Positions 962 to 8,086 of a DNA stretch of 34,124 nucleotides are shown here, in pieces. Location of the stretch: positions 1-34,124 of the forward strand of contig JAURDE010000008.1 in assembly GCA_030828105.1 (NCBI GenBank), read 5' to 3'. A program made the position numbers and the translations under genes. Every line of letters starts with the position of its first letter. Within the stretch, counting starts at the first letter, position 1. The notes under the pieces are model-generated. The model was not told where the DNA came from, did not search any database, and worked only from the letters and a program-made list of their open reading frames with translations. Source of the DNA: Bdellovibrionota bacterium (lineage in GTDB: Bacteria; Bdellovibrionota; Bacteriovoracia; Bacteriovoracales; Bacteriovoracaceae).

Positions 962-2059
962 ATGATCATATTTAAATGGCTTGTACTTATACTCATATTT
1001 GCTCTTGCAATATTCCTAGTTATTGCTTTTATTCTCTATAAGATCCAAAAAGCGAAGGAAGAAAAAGAGGATCGCTATTTACCTGATTATATAGAAAAGT
1101 TCCCTCCCCCTCAGAGCTATCAAATTATAGGGCGTTCTCCCCTTGACCCGTTAGATGGTTCAGATTGGCCACATATGATGGCAATGATCTCTAAACGTTT
1201 AATAAAACATAAGGTAACAAAAATTGTTCTCATTAATGGAACCTTTATGGGAGAAGATCCTTTTGATCTTTTTCAGGCATTTCCCTACCTGCCCGTCTTT
1301 ATAAAAAATTTTATTATAAGAGTCTCAAATTTTATAAGAGAGTTCATTTTCGCAGACGGGTCCCAATTCTCTCTAAAATACGTTCATTTACTTAAAACTT
1401 CACTAGAAGGCGTTGATGTTAGCTCTTTTACTTGGTCAAGCTCTAACCACCACATAGGGCGTCTGAGAGGGGCCTTTAAACTCCTTGAGCACTTAAGTTC
1501 TTTTGATGATAAACGAATTTTATTGATGGCCCACAGTCATGGTGGTCAATGCCTGGCCCTTCTGACTCAAATTCTGGCCGGAAGATTTGATAGTGATTCT
1601 CTTCAACGCCAAATTGTTAATAAGAAAAAGCTCGATTTTGTTACCTTGGGTATGCCTGCCCGTTATCGTTTTCAGTTAAATGAAAGGATACGACTTCTTA
1701 ATCTTATTAACCATAAAACAGCTCTTCCTTTAGCAGGGCATTTTACTGGAGTCCCTTTTACCAGAGATGGCGATTATCTTCAGCAATGGGGGGTCGAAGG
1801 GAGTGATAACCCTTCACCTATTTTAAAAGACAATCGACTCAATAAAGAGTTAAGCCTCGTCCTAGGTGCAGGAAGTGATCCTTTAAGATGGAAGAAAAAT
1901 ATAAAAAAGAGGTGTAGAGTTCCTAAAGATGGGCATACATATCTTATTGATTATGGTGATCGAGGTTTTTTTATAACAACTTTATTAGGTCACGCGATCT
2001 ATACGAGAAAAAAGGTTATGCTTAAAAACTTTAAACTACTTGTTGATTTTTTCTATTAG
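962..2059 (+). CDS. Membrane-anchored alpha/beta-hydrolase-like protein
   Basis: The N-terminus (residues 1-28) is one strongly hydrophobic segment followed by a basic and acidic stretch, so it is probably a membrane anchor with the bulk of the protein on one face. AHSHGG (about residues 190-195) is a good nucleophile elbow of the G-x-S-x-G type with Ala in the first position, preceded by the beta-strand RILLM. NGTFMGEDPF, around residue 92, could form the oxyanion side of a lipase-like fold. Candidate His residues occur in HTYLIDYGD and GHAIY near the C-terminus. I do not recognise a specific family, and the substrate is unknown; a lipase or esterase acting on lipids is an inference. No Shine-Dalgarno is evident before the ATG. 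The last 29 bases overlap the end of the convergent dnaE2. Confidence 0.6.
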   Translation: MIIFKWLVLILIFALAIFLVIAFILYKIQKAKEEKEDRYLPDYIEKFPPPQSYQIIGRSPLDPLDGSDWPHMMAMISKRLIKHKVTKIVLINGTFMGEDPFDLFQAFPYLPVFIKNFIIRVSNFIREFIFADGSQFSLKYVHLLKTSLEGVDVSSFTWSSSNHHIGRLRGAFKLLEHLSSFDDKRILLMAHSHGGQCLALLTQILAGRFDSDSLQRQIVNKKKLDFVTLGMPARYRFQLNERIRLLNLINHKTALPLAGHFTGVPFTRDGDYLQQWGVEGSDNPSPILKDNRLNKELSLVLGAGSDPLRWKKNIKKRCRVPKDGHTYLIDYGDRGFFITTLLGHAIYTRKKVMLKNFKLLVDFFY

Positions 2060-4955
2060 CAAAGAGTGGCTCTACCGTTTTTATTTTTAAAACCCTAACC
2101 TGTATCGACCCCAATGTCTCTTCTACTACACCCTTTATCAAAAAACTCGACTCCATTTGAAGAAGGTCCTGATATGAAAGATAAACTCCAGGAAAAAAAA
2201 CTGTCTCAAAAATATCAGTTTCATCACTAAAGGTACAAAACATCATTGGGCCTCCACTTGAAGTTCTTACCTTCTTTGATGTTACGTAAAGACCAAAGAG
2301 AACGACTTCTTTACCGATAAAGCATCTTAGATCTTGTGCTCTAACTCTACCTTTTATTGATAGAGCATCTCTATAAAGGGCCCATTCCGGAAAGGATACT
2401 CCTCCTCCTAATAGATCCAACTCGTAATCTATCAGCTCTTTTGGATTGTATTCTTTCATATTAGGAAGAAGTGCTTGATGTGTATTAGATATATGTCCAC
2501 GTTTTTTAGCAAAAAAAGCATATACTCTCCACATTTGATCTACATAGGTTGAGTCTTTTAAAGTAGAAAAGCATCTGGACTTCACTAATACTTTGGCATC
2601 CTCAAAACTGATATCAGTTCTTTCCAAAAGCTCTTCTAGTGATTGATAAGGACGATAGTTTAAAAGCTTTTGAAGTCCTTTTTGAGTCAGTCCTTTAACT
2701 TGGGAAAGTCCTGTTCGAATAAAATCTTTTTGGCCTACAAAATCTTCTAGGCCCTTATTTACATCAGGGGGAAGTATTTTAATATTCATCCTACGGGCCT
2801 CATCTAAATAAGCAAATGTAGAATAATAGCCTCCTCTATTTGATATAACGGCTGCCATAAACTCGGCAGGATAATTGGCCTTTAAATAACATGACTTATA
2901 TGAGACGAGAGCGTAGCTAGCTGAGTGCGCCTTGCAAAAAGAATAACCACTAAAGCTTAAAATCATATCCCAAATTTGATCCAAAATATTTTGAGAAATT
3001 CCTTTTTTAAAAGCTCCTTGATAAAATTGATATTTATAATCTTGTAGTTTTTTCTTTTCATCTTTTTTATCAAGAACTTTTCGAAGGTTATTTCCTTCGG
3101 TGCTTGAAAAATTTGCTAAGGCCATAGCAACTTGAGTGACTTGTTCTTGATAAACAATGATCCCATATGTTTCATCTAATACTGGTTTTAGTAAGGGGTG
3201 AAGATGCCTAAAAGGTTTACCGTGGAGCCTTTGGACAAACTCAAGAGAAAACTGATTGGCCGCAGGCCTTATAATAGAAGACGCGATGACAATATTTTCA
3301 AACTCAGATGTTTTCATCCTTTGTAAAAGCTGTCTCGTCGCTGGGGACTCTATGTAGAAGACACCCATCGTTTGACCTAAAATAAGAAGTTTTTTGGTTT
3401 TATCATCTTCTAGAGGATCAAGGTCCTGGTATCTATAACATTTATTATGATTTTTATTCACTGCTGTAATGGTATCCCTGATAACTGCAAGGGAACGATT
3501 GCCAAGAAGATCGATTTTTACGAGCCCTGCTTTCTCCGCTTGTCTTTTTTCCCATTGAATGACAGGAAGACCTTTAGGAGTGAGTTGAAGTGGAACATAA
3601 TGGGATATGGGGTTTGGAGTAATGACAACTCCTCCGGGGTGAACGGAGAGGGTTTTAAAAAAGCCTTGAATCCTTTGGGCGTGAATAACTACATTTTTCC
3701 AGGTTTGATTAAGTTCTACTCTAGGAAAACGATTGAGTACATAATTGATTTCTTGCTCACTTATCCCATAGACTTTAGCTACTTCTCTAATAGAAGATCG
3801 TCCTTGGAGTGTATTATGATTGGAAACCATTGCCACATGGTTTTTATACTTTTCAAAGACATAATCTAGGATGGAATCCCTTTCATCCCACGGAAAATCA
3901 ATATCAATATCAGGAGGATCTACTCTTTCAGGATTTAAAAAACGATCAAAAAAAAGGTTATGTTTAATAGGATCAACGTGGGTAATTTCTAAAAGATAGC
4001 TAACAAGGCTGGAAGCTGCTGAACCTCTCCCACAGGTTCGTGGGGAGTTTTTAACAATATCTTCGACAACAAGGAAATAGGAGCTAAAGCCTTTTTGACA
4101 AATAACAGAGAGTTCGTACTGAAGTCTTTTTTGGGACTTTTTAAAGAGTTCATTTTTATGAGTATATCTTTTTAAAAGCCCCTGTTGTGCTTTTTGATGA
4201 AGAATCATTTTGCAATCCTCTTCACTTTTCCCCTCATAAAGAGGGAAAATTATCTTTTTTGTATACCAATTATACTGGCATCTTTTAGCTACGTTTTGCG
4301 CATTTTTTAGGGCCATAGGGTATGGGGTAAACATTCTGGATAACTCTAACGGTGAGTAGAGCCTGCATTTTTTATTGTAGTAATCAAGATGGGTGCTTGA
4401 GAGAGTACTGTTTTGGTCTATTGCTCTAATCATCTGATAATAAAAATGATCAGTTTCTTTTAAATAATAACCTCTTGTAGAAGCGATAAGAGGAATATTT
4501 CGAGAGTGGGCCCAATAATAGTCTTTTTGGGTAAAAAAACCAGGACAAACTTCATAGAATAGATTTCCCTCGTTAGGAAGACTTGAAAGAATACCCTTAT
4601 CCTCACTAAAAAGGATTCCCTCTTCTAAAAATGAGTTGAGGTACTGAAGAAATGTATCTTGTGACATCTCTTCCATATGAACTTTAGTAAGAAGAATACA
4701 AAGTTTTGAATAACTATATGTTGAAGTACAAAGGCAGACTACTCTCCTTTTATTCCATATGACTTCAGAGCCTATAATGGGAGATATACCATACTCCTTA
4801 GCTGCTTCTAAAAAGAACTGCATCCCATAGAGCCCATTCGTATCTGTAAGAGCGATGGTTTCAAGGGCATTGGCCTTGGCCCATTCACAGATTTCACGGG
4901 GAGTAAGCAGCCCACCCAGGGGAGAATAAGTGGAATGAACACATAATGGAATCAC
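2031..4955 (-). CDS. dnaE2: Error-prone DNA polymerase III alpha-like subunit (DnaE2/ImuC)
   Basis: This is a C-family polymerase of 974 residues, a little short for DnaE2. The order is an N-terminal PHP domain (VHSTYSPLGG, LTDTNG), the polymerase palm with PPDIDIDF (about residues 345-352) giving the paired metal-binding Asp residues, a third catalytic Asp in KIDLLGNRSL (about residue 480), helix-hairpin-helix repeats (SQVKGLTQKGL) and a C-terminal OB fold (EVVLFGLYVTSKKVR). It follows an inactive Y-family protein and sits in the lexA operon, which points to the translesion type rather than the replicative DnaE1. The start is GTG: the preceding gene's stop and this start share one base (TAGTG), with AGGTAGGG just upstream, so translation is probably coupled. 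In this family ImuC makes the lesion-bypass primer extension and thus the induced mutations. Confidence 0.9.
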   Translation of the reverse strand: MIPLCVHSTYSPLGGLLTPREICEWAKANALETIALTDTNGLYGMQFFLEAAKEYGISPIIGSEVIWNKRRVVCLCTSTYSYSKLCILLTKVHMEEMSQDTFLQYLNSFLEEGILFSEDKGILSSLPNEGNLFYEVCPGFFTQKDYYWAHSRNIPLIASTRGYYLKETDHFYYQMIRAIDQNSTLSSTHLDYYNKKCRLYSPLELSRMFTPYPMALKNAQNVAKRCQYNWYTKKIIFPLYEGKSEEDCKMILHQKAQQGLLKRYTHKNELFKKSQKRLQYELSVICQKGFSSYFLVVEDIVKNSPRTCGRGSAASSLVSYLLEITHVDPIKHNLFFDRFLNPERVDPPDIDIDFPWDERDSILDYVFEKYKNHVAMVSNHNTLQGRSSIREVAKVYGISEQEINYVLNRFPRVELNQTWKNVVIHAQRIQGFFKTLSVHPGGVVITPNPISHYVPLQLTPKGLPVIQWEKRQAEKAGLVKIDLLGNRSLAVIRDTITAVNKNHNKCYRYQDLDPLEDDKTKKLLILGQTMGVFYIESPATRQLLQRMKTSEFENIVIASSIIRPAANQFSLEFVQRLHGKPFRHLHPLLKPVLDETYGIIVYQEQVTQVAMALANFSSTEGNNLRKVLDKKDEKKKLQDYKYQFYQGAFKKGISQNILDQIWDMILSFSGYSFCKAHSASYALVSYKSCYLKANYPAEFMAAVISNRGGYYSTFAYLDEARRMNIKILPPDVNKGLEDFVGQKDFIRTGLSQVKGLTQKGLQKLLNYRPYQSLEELLERTDISFEDAKVLVKSRCFSTLKDSTYVDQMWRVYAFFAKKRGHISNTHQALLPNMKEYNPKELIDYELDLLGGGVSFPEWALYRDALSIKGRVRAQDLRCFIGKEVVLFGLYVTSKKVRTSSGGPMMFCTFSDETDIFETVFFPGVYLSYQDLLQMESSFLIKGVVEETLGSIQVRVLKIKTVEPLFANRKNQQVV

Positions 4956-6127
4956 TACCCTACCTCATTTCCATATTTGATGAGACGCTGACCGAACTTA
5001 TTTTTTATGGAATCCATCGTACTTTCAATTTCTTTTGATCCTTGAAAGTGATCTAAAAAAGATAATTGTATTTCATTTTGAATGAGTTCTTTGAAATTTA
5101 CACTTATAAATTGAATTCTCGTTCTTCTTTTGAATAAGTCATAAAAAAGAGAGAGAACGAGAGGTGCTATTTCATAGGAATATTGGGAAGGGTTTTTAAG
5201 TTCTTTCTCTTTCGAAACAAACTTGTAATCAATATAACGAAAGGAGACTTCGATCTTTTGACAAAAAAGACCTTTTTTTCGCAATTTAAATAGGCCAGAT
5301 TCAACAAGAGTAGAAAGGACTTGTCGTAACTTGGGTAAGTCATTGGTATCCTCCTTAAGGTAAGTTTCTTCAAATAAGGCGTGTTCTTTTTTTGGTGGTA
5401 GGACTGGGCTAAAATCAATTCCTTTGGCCATAGATATAATTTCTGTACCTGTTTTCCCAAAGGCAACTTCAAGAGCGTAGGGGCTTAAAGATAAAATATC
5501 CCTAACTTTTTTAAGGTTCAAGTCTTGAAAAAGAGTGTCTTTTTTAACTTTAATAATTTGTCTTACAAGAGGAAGAACTTCAACTGGAAGAGGTGAAAGG
5601 AATTGTTTTTCTTTTCCTTCTTGAATCAAAACAATGTCATCTACCTTAGACTTAGCCGCTACTTTTGAAACAAGTTTATTAATAGAGCTTCCTACTGAAG
5701 GTATAAGACTAAAGTCATTTTTAAGATCAAGTAGTATTTTTTTACCCATATCTCCTTTTTCACCGTAGAGCTTTTCAAGGCCTGTTAGATCTAAATAAGC
5801 ATGACCTGGTTTTTCTACTTCATAGACTGGAGTAAGATTTGAAAGTAATTTGTTTTCAATTTTTCGATTCACTTGATTGACAAGGTCAGGCCTTGGTGGA
5901 AGGACAATAATGTCCTTACAAACCTTTTTGGCCTGAGCAAGGCTCATCCCCTTTTTAAGACCTTCATTTTTAGCCTCAGGCGATACTTCCCACAATAAAG
6001 ACCTTTCTGATTTAACTGGTGCCATAACTACAGGTCTGCCATTTAATGACGGTTCAAGAACCCTCTCGATAGCAATAGAAAAAGCAGTCACATTAAGGTA
6101 AAAAACCTTTCTTTCTAAGGCACACAT
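4955..6127 (-). CDS. imuB: Y-family polymerase homologue lacking catalytic acids (ImuB type)
   Basis: The protein has Y-family architecture (390 residues): palm, GMSLAQAKK finger segment, helix-hairpin-helix around KKVRDILSL, a little-finger domain and a typical DinB-like tail. All three metal ligands are replaced. The first Asp is Asn12 in YLNVTAF, and the Asp-Glu of the S-x-D-E-A-Y-L-D motif is Gly108-His109 in KPGHAYLD. It therefore should not polymerise DNA, matching ImuB, a scaffold that links the error-prone ImuC/DnaE2 to the beta clamp. A candidate clamp-binding motif, QLSFL, is at residues 354-358. It lies between the HNH-like gene (44-base gap) and dnaE2 (1-base overlap). The loss of catalytic residues is read directly; the scaffold role is inferred from the family. 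Confidence 0.88.
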   Translation of the reverse strand: MCALERKVFYLNVTAFSIAIERVLEPSLNGRPVVMAPVKSERSLLWEVSPEAKNEGLKKGMSLAQAKKVCKDIIVLPPRPDLVNQVNRKIENKLLSNLTPVYEVEKPGHAYLDLTGLEKLYGEKGDMGKKILLDLKNDFSLIPSVGSSINKLVSKVAAKSKVDDIVLIQEGKEKQFLSPLPVEVLPLVRQIIKVKKDTLFQDLNLKKVRDILSLSPYALEVAFGKTGTEIISMAKGIDFSPVLPPKKEHALFEETYLKEDTNDLPKLRQVLSTLVESGLFKLRKKGLFCQKIEVSFRYIDYKFVSKEKELKNPSQYSYEIAPLVLSLFYDLFKRRTRIQFISVNFKELIQNEIQLSFLDHFQGSKEIESTMDSIKNKFGQRLIKYGNEVG

Positions 6128-6171
6128 AGCTCATTTCTTCTCTGCAGGTGTTTAAGTTAGTCCAAGTAGGT

Positions 6172-6915
6172 CTAGGGGCTCTTTTGTGAATCCCGTTGTT
6201 TTTTTAATTCTTTAAGTTTTCTATATTGAGATTTTCTGAATTCTCTTTGCTGTTTCTTTTTTTCTTCTAGTTGATCCTTGAACTTTTCTTTCATTTCACG
6301 ACGGTACTCTTTCTGAAGCTCTCTTTGCTTTTCTTTATATGATTCATTTGGTGTTGGAACTTTTTGCTTTGGTCTAAGTTCTTTTGCCTTTTCATAGAGT
6401 TCTTTATCCCATTTTTTCTTCTCAGATGATTTGAGCTGATATAGTTCATCTTCCTTAAGGTTCTCCCTTTTTTCTCTATTCACTTGTCTTGTTTTTTCTT
6501 TTTTCTTTTTTATCTTATTAAGCTCTCTTTCTTTTTCTTCTGCAGGTCGATGCGATTCAATCGTTTTTTCTAAAAGCTCTATTGCTTCTTCAAATGATAA
6601 GCTTGGATCTATCATCACCTTTTTTTTATATTTAAAAATAAGATAATCTTTCATTTGGTTGATCATCACACTAAGGGGATCAATAGCAAATTTTTTATAA
6701 AAGCTTAGAGGCCCTATGCGATGAATGGCACTACTTCCGGTCGTATGAAAGGAGTGTTGTAAAGGCAGAACACGATAATCAGAAGGCTTTAAACCTACAC
6801 CTGAAGTATTATCATTTTCACGCACATGATGGGCCACATCCGCTTTTTTCCCCGAAACCAAACAGTTTTTGGTTTGTCGGATCCAATCTAAATATTTTTG
6901 ATTCCTATAAGTCAT
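6172..6915 (-). CDS. HNH/DUF968-like protein with long basic coiled-coil tail, in the lexA-imuB-dnaE2 operon
   Basis: Residues 1-75 resemble the DUF968/HNH nuclease core: YLDWIRQTKNCLVSGKKADVA is followed by His29-His30, a GVGLKPSDY motif, VLPLQH and His54, His57 and His65. In the usual form Cys-x2-Cys and a Cys before the final His pair bind zinc. Here the second Cys is Ser21 and another is Gln53, so the metal site is incomplete and activity is uncertain. Residues 120-247 are almost wholly Lys, Glu, Arg and Gln, predicted as a long charged coiled coil that could bind DNA or partners. The gene starts one base after the lexA stop and precedes imuB, the position ImuA holds in classical mutagenesis cassettes. 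A role as an alternative mutasome component is inference from position. The family call is moderately sure. Confidence 0.72.
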   Translation of the reverse strand: MTYRNQKYLDWIRQTKNCLVSGKKADVAHHVRENDNTSGVGLKPSDYRVLPLQHSFHTTGSSAIHRIGPLSFYKKFAIDPLSVMINQMKDYLIFKYKKKVMIDPSLSFEEAIELLEKTIESHRPAEEKERELNKIKKKKEKTRQVNREKRENLKEDELYQLKSSEKKKWDKELYEKAKELRPKQKVPTPNESYKEKQRELQKEYRREMKEKFKDQLEEKKKQQREFRKSQYRKLKELKKQRDSQKSP

Positions 6916-6916
6916 C

Positions 6917-7510
6917 CTAGTATTTCCTTACAAGGCCTGTAACTATTCCTTCAAGTGAAAAGTTACCTTTTTCAACAATAATAGGATCTAGCTCTTTATT
7001 TCTTGGATGCAACTCAACCCTATTTTTTCGATAATAATATTTCTTTACAGTGGCCCCTCCCTCTATTAAAGCAACGACTGTTTGACCATCACGGGCCTCC
7101 TTTTGAGACTTCACGACAATGACATCTCCGTCCATAATACAGTCTTCAATCATTGAGTTTCCTCTCACATAAAGAGCAAAATATTTTCCCTTTCCAATCA
7201 TATCTTGGGGAACAGAAATCAGTTCGTAGTCTTGATTAGAGTCAGTATCGAGAGGTGCACCTGCAGCGACTTCTCCTAGCAAGGGGATTTGAATCATATT
7301 CTCGGGTCTTTCAATGAGCTCAATTACGCCGGACTCGTTATTTTTAAGAAGGCCAGCATTTTTGAGATATTTCACGTAGTCTTGGATAGAGGCCTTTGAC
7401 TTAAGCCCAAAGTGGTTTTGAATCTCGCTATAACTCGGAGATCTATTATGAACGGCAAAAAAGTTTATAATGAAATCAAAAACTTCTTTTTGCTTTTTTG
7501 TTAGGGCCAT
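6917..7510 (-). CDS. lexA: LexA SOS repressor/autoprotease
   Basis: The protein has an N-terminal winged helix (LTKKQKEVFDFI to about residue 65) and a C-terminal S24 peptidase domain. Starting at ATG 7510, the cleavage dipeptide is Ala83-Gly84 (VAAGAP), the nucleophile is Ser119 (RGNSM) and the general base is Lys156 (ATVKKY). The last two have exactly the E. coli LexA numbers, which supports this start. In-frame upstream starts exist at 7525 (ATG) and 7540 (TTG), but they overlap the operator half-sites, and AAAAGGT precedes 7510 at good spacing. It heads the operon with the HNH-like gene, imuB and dnaE2, so DNA damage should relieve repression of the whole set. Autoregulation through the repeated CATAC half-sites just upstream is inferred. 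Confidence 0.96.
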   Translation of the reverse strand: MALTKKQKEVFDFIINFFAVHNRSPSYSEIQNHFGLKSKASIQDYVKYLKNAGLLKNNESGVIELIERPENMIQIPLLGEVAAGAPLDTDSNQDYELISVPQDMIGKGKYFALYVRGNSMIEDCIMDGDVIVVKSQKEARDGQTVVALIEGGATVKKYYYRKNRVELHPRNKELDPIIVEKGNFSLEGIVTGLVRKY

Positions 7511-7522
7511 AGTTACCTTTTC

Positions 7523-7570
7523 CATACGTTTTCCATACAATCAGCATACCGTATGTATTTCGTATGTAAA
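7523..7570 (-). promoter_or_regulatory. lexA promoter with five CATAC/GTATG half-sites on an 11-bp period
   Basis: On the plus strand CATAC occurs at 7523, 7534 and 7545 and GTATG at 7551 and 7562. The spacing is exactly 11 bases between like-oriented sites, and a CATAC-N-GTATG palindrome is centred on 7550. Read on the minus strand, TTTACA (7565-7570) and TATGCT (7543-7548) are 16 bases apart and form a plausible promoter with the palindrome inside it. This is the layout expected of a LexA autorepression operator. The sequence does not match the E. coli box, nor the TTAC-N3-GTAA box I recall for Bdellovibrio. The repeats are read directly; binding by LexA is inferred. Confidence 0.65.
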
Positions 7571-7654: not shown

Positions 7655-8086
7655 TTGAGAAGAATTAGTCTCTATGAAATACTTAGCGTCATGGAAGCGA
7701 CTTGGACAGATGGATTCTTCAAAAACACAATAAAGGCCTTTAAAAGGTATAAGCTCAAGGGTGCTCTAATACGGTTAAAAAACAGTATCGATAACCCGAG
7801 TGTTTTTTTTGATCATCTAAAATCATTAAGCAACAAACAAAAGGTCGAATATAAAGGCCTAAAAAAGGTAAAAGTTAAAGACCTCATCACTAAACAAGCA
7901 ATAACCAAAGACAGTTTTTACGGAAAAAGACTAGAAGAAGCAAAAAGATCAGGCCAAGTCCCATATTCATGCTCTCCTATAATTATAGTAGATAATATTG
8001 TACATGATGGAAATCATCGCGTGAGTATTTGTAAACAAGTCGGAATTGAAGAAGTTGAGTGCGAGTACTACATCTCAAAGCTTTAG
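7655..8086 (+). CDS. ParB/Srx-like domain protein
   Basis: The C-terminal third carries SPIIIVDNIVHDGNHRVSI with DGNHR at residues 118-122 (TTG numbering), the nucleotide-binding signature of the ParB/sulfiredoxin-like fold that is also found in many small stand-alone proteins. The N-terminal 70 residues are basic and unrecognised, and there is no ParB helix-turn-helix, so a chromosome-partition role is unlikely. The start is uncertain: TTG at 7655 gives 143 residues, ATG at 7691 gives 131, and neither has a Shine-Dalgarno. The gene is divergent from lexA and shares the 144-base region holding the CATAC repeats, so co-regulation by damage is possible but unproven. Its 3' end overlaps the acyl-CoA oxidase gene by 4 bases, tail to tail. 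Function unknown. Confidence 0.6.
   Translation: MRRISLYEILSVMEATWTDGFFKNTIKAFKRYKLKGALIRLKNSIDNPSVFFDHLKSLSNKQKVEYKGLKKVKVKDLITKQAITKDSFYGKRLEEAKRSGQVPYSCSPIIIVDNIVHDGNHRVSICKQVGIEEVECEYYISKL

Follow-up and report, generated by a model that had tools for sequence, protein, structure and literature searches.

A phage-type HNH gene behind lexA in an ImuA-less mutagenesis operon of the Bacteriovoracaceae

What is a gene for an HNH-type protein doing between lexA and the polymerase genes of a mutagenesis cassette? The question is raised by a stretch of 34,124 nucleotides from a Bacteriovorax-like member of the Bacteriovoracaceae (Bdellovibrionota bacterium, assembly GCA_030828105.1, contig JAURDE010000008.1), referred to here in its entirety as "the window". 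Four genes are arranged in tandem on the minus strand in the order lexA, an HNH-like gene, an imuB-like gene and dnaE2, the order given in a preliminary description of this DNA. The genes are tightly packed: the HNH gene starts one base after lexA, as had also been noted; 44 bases separate the HNH and imuB genes; and the imuB and dnaE2 genes have a one-base stop/start overlap (−1 spacing). The preliminary description proposed that the HNH protein is a subunit of the ImuB-DnaE2 mutasome that replaces ImuA, or one that brings in a nuclease activity. Here, we favor a different reading, with confidence a little short of even: the HNH protein is a captured (domesticated) phage recombination nuclease, similar to Ref of phage P1 and Gp16 of phage phiNM1, that has become SOS-inducible by way of lexA and lies beside an ImuA-less mutasome.

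The association of the HNH gene with imuB and dnaE2 in relatives, on which the proposed replacement of ImuA was made to depend, is largely lacking. We surveyed 143 relatives, ~84 of them probably from the same family; most are draft assemblies, in which the absence of a gene is not proof of its loss. The HNH gene was found in 18 of the ~84 same-family genomes and in none of those sampled from other families. This type of imuB, which encodes an inactive Y-family polymerase ("iPolY"), was found in 11 genomes, all of the same family; weaker matches, where they or their neighborhoods were read, were catalytic DinB. The HNH and imuB-dnaE2 genes occur together in four genomes, vs 2.4 expected (Fisher p = 0.24; by genus, p = 0.36). 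Seven imuB-dnaE2 genomes have no HNH gene and equally no detected imuA, and 14 HNH genomes have neither this imuB nor this dnaE2; two HNH genomes, G007 and G020, carry a further DnaE-like gene of ~30% identity. The presence of the HNH gene is thus not linked to the loss of ImuA, and on this distribution the HNH protein was rejected as an ImuA substitute in the role of leading reading.

The gene combinations across relatives instead indicate that the HNH gene follows lexA, not imuB. The complete lexA-HNH-imuB-dnaE2 order is found in two genomes, that of the window and G051. Two others, G008 and G053, have lexA-imuB-dnaE2 without the HNH gene; in five, imuB-dnaE2 has neither lexA nor the HNH gene adjoining; and in G009 and G072, imuB-dnaE2 and the HNH gene are both present, at unrelated places. 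The sister genome G006 has kept lexA-HNH but lacks imuB and a DnaE2 of this type. Overall, the HNH gene adjoins lexA in three of the 18 HNH genomes, lying between lexA and imuB in two, and is solo in the other 15. A tree of the HNH domain supports one lexA-linked clade (99/98), but elsewhere the tree is mostly unresolved, with long branches for some phage sequences. Between the HNH genes of G051 and G006, the ratio of nonsynonymous to synonymous substitution rates (dN/dS) is 0.16 overall and 0.10 in the domain, as a pairwise value that averages both lineages. The HNH gene is under purifying selection, although G006 has no iPolY or DnaE2.

The absence of imuA, on which the proposed replacement likewise depended, held up in the genome of the window, which is 93% complete. 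The sole match to an ImuA model was RecA itself, and the one imuA candidate (G000:C210) was rejected for being RecA. Across the 11 iPolY genomes, imuA is never beside imuB, no match exceeds the ImuA cut-off, and those below it that were read are RecA, judging by their N-termini; three of the 11, which are incomplete, gave no ImuA-model match whatsoever. The imuA gene of a canonical ImuA-ImuB-DnaE2 system was thus detected in no iPolY genome. The HNH protein itself has no match to RecA or ImuA family models. One iPolY-dnaE2 genome, G053 (C10), encodes a second, shorter RecA-like protein (325 amino acids) besides RecA.

The polymerase genes resemble a known type of cassette in which RecA is proposed to take ImuA's place. 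The ImuB-like protein was described as polymerase-dead, and its catalytic acids are indeed lost: it has LNVTAF where active relatives have HIDLDSF or HIDMDAF, and GHAYLD where they have DEGYLD or DEAYLD. The acids are gone in 11 of 11 family homologues, and DinB controls retain them. The name "ImuB" fits insofar as this is an inactive Y-family polymerase encoded beside dnaE2, but not in full, since the homologues stop ~35 residues past the little-finger domain (IMS_C) and so lack ImuB-C, a domain that canonical ImuB has. Close to their C-termini, all 11 homologues retain a clamp motif containing QL. The iPolY tail, SKEIESTMDSIKNKFGQRLIKYG, resembles the N-terminus of the organism's own RecA, TKALDMALSNIEKQFGKGAIMKF. 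In a profile-profile comparison of the full-length families (hhalign), the best match paired the iPolY tail with the RecA N-terminus, weakly (P = 0.16). A scan with a profile of the RecA N-terminus (RecA-NT) gave its top score at the extreme tail in seven of the 11 iPolYs, a modest result against shuffles; the score of the window protein was equalled by 27 of 500 shuffles. A RecA-binding tail is at most probable. The replicative DnaE is encoded by a separate gene (G000:C21), with 32% identity to dnaE2.

ImuA-less cassettes have been published, and RecA has been proposed to bind the tail of the Y-family protein in ImuA's place (PMC6511836, PMC12926913). The cassette described here, which pairs DnaE2 with an inactive Y-family polymerase in a genome where no imuA was found, shares with this DnaE2-iPolY-RecA type (PMC12926913; ImuA-less variants, PMC6511836) the proximity of dnaE2 to the inactive polymerase, the clamp motif, the probable RecA-NT tail, and the frequent company of lexA without imuA. 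It differs in its lineage, Bdellovibrionota, and in the HNH gene within the operon in two genera. Compared with lexA-imuA-imuB-dnaE2 operons, such as the Pseudomonas putida lexA2 operon (PMC3901139), it is similar in its predicted SOS regulation, its own lexA, its dead Y-family protein and its DnaE2, but has no imuA and no ImuB-C domain.

The preliminary description also expected the HNH gene to be damage-induced, which is very probable given its place in the lexA operon and the presence of a LexA-operator-like repeat upstream. Of the 34 lexA genes read in the family, 30 have the direct repeat TACG-N7-TACG upstream, in many cases in two copies. Among the seven iPolY-dnaE2 operons without a lexA in front, five are preceded by an exact copy and one by a copy with one mismatch; G013 has none. 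In the genome of the window, the repeat occurs at −152 of recA and, as TACGCATAACTTACG, before the other lexA (G000:C230:11815-12435), which is followed by a gene for a catalytic DinB. The background frequency is 0.024 per kb in ~208 kb of family sequence. A tighter pattern, TACGNAAWNNNTACG, has two sites in the same genome vs three for its reversed control, with no genome-wide enrichment; hence, the pattern alone is unreliable for genome-wide regulon calls. The case for an operator is made by the lexA and imuB promoters, where the repeat recurs, and not by genome-wide enrichment. The LexA of the window falls in a clade with the LexAs of G006, G051, G008, G053, G039 and two others, apart from the LexA encoded with dinB (G000:C230). 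We infer from these sequence features that the whole lexA-HNH-imuB-dnaE2 operon is under LexA control. By contrast, an exact repeat is missing from the 300 bases upstream of all 15 stand-alone HNH genes, one of which has a single-mismatch site at approximately −206; therefore, SOS regulation of the HNH gene is probably confined to the lexA-linked lineage.

The HNH protein belongs to a family known from phages. Pfam DUF968 (PF06147) covers residues 2–58 with 28.9 bits, just above the curated cut-off of 27.8, in agreement with the DUF968/HNH-like identity first assigned to it; family homologues score up to 41.3 bits and phage relatives up to 49. The zinc site had been described as degraded by Ser21 and Gln53. 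Both substitutions are present, but a third position, Phe56, is also lost, such that only Cys18 of the four ligands is retained and the CxxC/CxxH pattern is missing. Moreover, no family member has an intact zinc site, and neither do the closest relatives in phages; the ligands are kept in more distant phage members (from Caulobacter, Bradyrhizobium and Sphingopyxis phages). We therefore rejected degradation of a single protein as an explanation, since the loss is common to the whole branch, phage proteins included. His29, His30, Asn36, His57 and His65 are kept in 18 of 18 family members, and His30 and His57 are present in all 27 aligned sequences, including those of phages. In a structure model, strands 27–30 and 49–52 are followed by a helix at 54–59, a beta-beta-alpha arrangement with the active-site His and Asn residues. 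The active site thus appears to be of nuclease type, retained while the structural zinc ligands drift. Of the earlier suggestion that the HNH protein brings a nuclease activity to the mutasome, the nuclease-type site is supported by residue conservation and the role as a mutasome subunit is not supported.

The charged C-terminal tail noted previously is basic, ~150 residues long and K/R/E-rich (51 K/R and 34 D/E in 158 residues), with long helices predicted at high confidence; all members have a long charged tail. In homologues, the tails contain several copies of a ~35-residue unit around FYEKAKELKRxRDKELRxKLK, the copy number of which varies between species.

Earlier work describes DUF968 as an Orf-like domain fused to HNH and considers it a possible recombination-linked nuclease (PMC4118853). 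In phages, DUF968 genes have recombination genes as neighbors (NinB, YqaJ and ERF; RusA with a recombinase or Rad52); in metagenomic phages, the neighbors are SSB-like or Erf-like genes, as read from their sequences. Gp16 of phiNM1, which scores 29.1 bits to DUF968, above the cut-off, is a RecA-dependent nickase that arrests growth through RecA (PMC12817073). A model of the HNH-type domain (predicted local distance difference test score, 87.5) matches models of phage DUF968 proteins (E = 7e-5 and 2e-4) and the model of another phage protein, which carries a RecA-dependent nuclease annotation (E = 3.2e-4; template modeling score, 0.67). Profile searches with the HNH protein gave no match in the PDB at E up to 10 and none to the Pfam family of P1 Ref (RecA_dep_nuc, PF16786) at E up to 1, and the plasmids searched held no relative. 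The phage gene neighborhoods and the model matches favor a phage origin.

The likeness to characterized phage nucleases is partial. With the phage DUF968/Orf-HNH nucleases, including Gp16 (PMC12817073, PMC4118853), the HNH protein shares the DUF968 HNH domain and the active-site His; it differs in having no Orf- or NinB-like N-terminal domain, in the loss of the zinc ligands, in the long, basic, helical C-terminal tail, and in being chromosomal and lexA-linked. P1 Ref is a RecA-dependent HNH nuclease that needs a basic segment for DNA binding (PMC4330346). It is similar in combining a small HNH domain with a charged basic segment, and there is a fold match to Ref-annotated phage models; however, in Ref this segment lies at the N-terminus and is disordered, whereas here it lies at the C-terminus and is predicted to be helical.

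Several observations weigh against a captured phage nuclease. With three of the four zinc ligands gone, and with Gp16 losing its function upon mutation of zinc-site residues C148, C181 and H184 (PMC12817073), catalysis is not assured. A fold search with the model of the entire protein was dominated by helical matches and returned nothing significant, and a search of the PDB with the domain model returned only weak HNH matches, none of them significant. The RecA-NT match of iPolY is well placed but statistically weak, LexA binding to TACG-N7-TACG is a prediction, and RecA guidance, RecA dependence and nicking are proposed for the HNH protein by analogy only. Because the zinc ligands are essential in Gp16, either the fold is stabilized without zinc here, or the protein has been converted into a DNA-binding factor. 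The conserved catalytic residues favor the former. The latter corresponds to a nuclease-dead HNH fold that acts, mainly through its basic helical tail, as a damage-induced DNA-binding or nucleoid-bridging factor. The lost ligands and the long charged tail of all members, often with FYEKAKELKR-like repeats, speak for such a factor, but the His and Asn residues of the catalytic center are invariant while the zinc ligands drift, and the zinc-less phage relatives share the same His pattern; we regard it as possible, if rather unlikely.

Other explanations assign lexA or the neighboring genes a different part. A toxic or anti-phage nuclease, for which lexA is only the switch, would stop growth or destroy DNA once damage or a phage activates RecA. 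Gp16 arrests growth through RecA (PMC12817073), and Ref is reported to raise the ciprofloxacin sensitivity of P1 lysogens (PMC4713147). However, no consistent partner or antitoxin gene was found at the solo HNH loci, and the solo copies have no SOS operator, which makes this explanation improbable. We give still less credence to the HNH protein as an accessory subunit in place of ImuA. The gene does lie between lexA and imuB in two genera, imuA was not found, and the genes are probably co-regulated; for the window and G051, the support is limited to this gene position. Against it stand the seven iPolY-dnaE2 genomes without the HNH gene and without a detectable imuA, the 14 HNH genomes without the mutasome, the retention of lexA-HNH alone in G006, and the probable RecA-NT tail of iPolY, which would make RecA the ImuA substitute. 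Finally, the gene could have been inserted by chance, its tie to the SOS response being shared transcription only, as might be suspected from its location in most family members, which carry it elsewhere without an operator. Its retention beside lexA in two genera with low dN/dS, and in G006 despite the absence of imuB-dnaE2, renders this very improbable.

For the favored reading, that of a captured phage nuclease, a mechanism can be proposed. The second lexA, iPolY and dnaE2 would form an ImuA-less mutagenesis cassette in which, judging from motifs and published models, iPolY bridges the beta clamp, RecA and DnaE2, and RecA would therefore do ImuA's job. The HNH protein would be a DUF968 phage-type nuclease, an independent resident of the bacterial family that moved behind lexA in one lineage and thereby came under LexA regulation. 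Upon DNA damage, LexA would be cleaved and the operon read, such that the HNH protein is made along with iPolY and DnaE2. Its basic helical tail would probably bind RecA-covered or branched DNA, which the protein might nick at its zinc-free His/Asn site, as P1 Ref and phiNM1 Gp16 do with RecA; at stalled forks, such nicks could open up recombination intermediates or help to clear them. In this scheme, the sequences show the order of the genes, the operator-like repeat, the family membership, the conserved active site, the purifying selection and the absence of a link to ImuA loss, whereas we infer the LexA binding, RecA dependence, nicking and in vivo role. A further form of the scheme, in which a zinc-free, phage-derived, SOS-induced and RecA-guided nickase works with the iPolY-DnaE2-RecA mutasome and links the cutting of strands at RecA filaments with error-prone filling of gaps, as a damage-induced mutagenesis module that includes a nuclease, is doubtful.

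Features of the lexA-HNH-imuB-dnaE2 operon, in window coordinates
Feature	Position	Strand	Description
lexA (second, cassette-type LexA of the genome)	6917..7510	-	197 amino acids from ATG at 7510; TIGR00498, 165.7 bits; reading frame open to 7540
DUF968/HNH-like gene	6172..6915	-	247 amino acids; Pfam DUF968, 28.9 bits; phrog_96 HNH endonuclease, 2.5e-6
HNH-type domain	6619..6915	-	Residues 1-99 of the HNH protein; from alignments and structure model
C-terminal tail of the HNH protein	6175..6618	-	K/R/E-rich, mostly helical, net positive
iPolY ("ImuB") gene	4955..6127	-	Inactive Y-family polymerase, 390 amino acids; IMS, 101.2 bits; IMS_C, 50.7 bits
QLSFL, probable beta-clamp-binding motif of iPolY	5054..5068	-	Q354 and L355 invariant in 11 homologues
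RecA-NT-like C-terminus of iPolY, SKEIESTMDSIKNKFGQRLIKYG	4970..5038	-	Profile-profile match to the family's own RecA N-terminus, with weak statistics
dnaE2, second C-family polymerase alpha subunit	2031..4955	-	974 amino acids; profile matches
Predicted LexA operator, TACGAAATACATACG (TACG-N7-TACG)	7550..7564	-	Repeat recurs at lexA and iPolY-dnaE2 promoters of the family
Imperfect second predicted operator, TATGGAAAACGTATG	7523..7537	-	One mismatch per half; comparable second repeat in G051 and G006

Near the predicted operator, an open reading frame at 7655–8086 that is divergent from lexA encodes a ParB-like DGNHR motif.

ImuA-less DnaE2-iPolY-RecA systems are already known, and the HNH gene inside such an operon is the variant described here. 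In the open-access PubMed Central literature, we found no description of a nuclease in SOS mutagenesis cassettes, the components there being polymerases and RecA-like subunits, and none of a family-wide direct-repeat operator; this repeat gives a starting point for work on the SOS regulon of the Bacteriovorax group. Among HNH enzymes, the branch provides a useful natural variant, with its active site retained and its structural zinc consistently lost. Should a phage recombination nuclease indeed have become SOS-inducible through its union with lexA, this would be a clear case of domestication, and the lexA-HNH operon would then offer a ready test of the link between incision and mutagenic synthesis.

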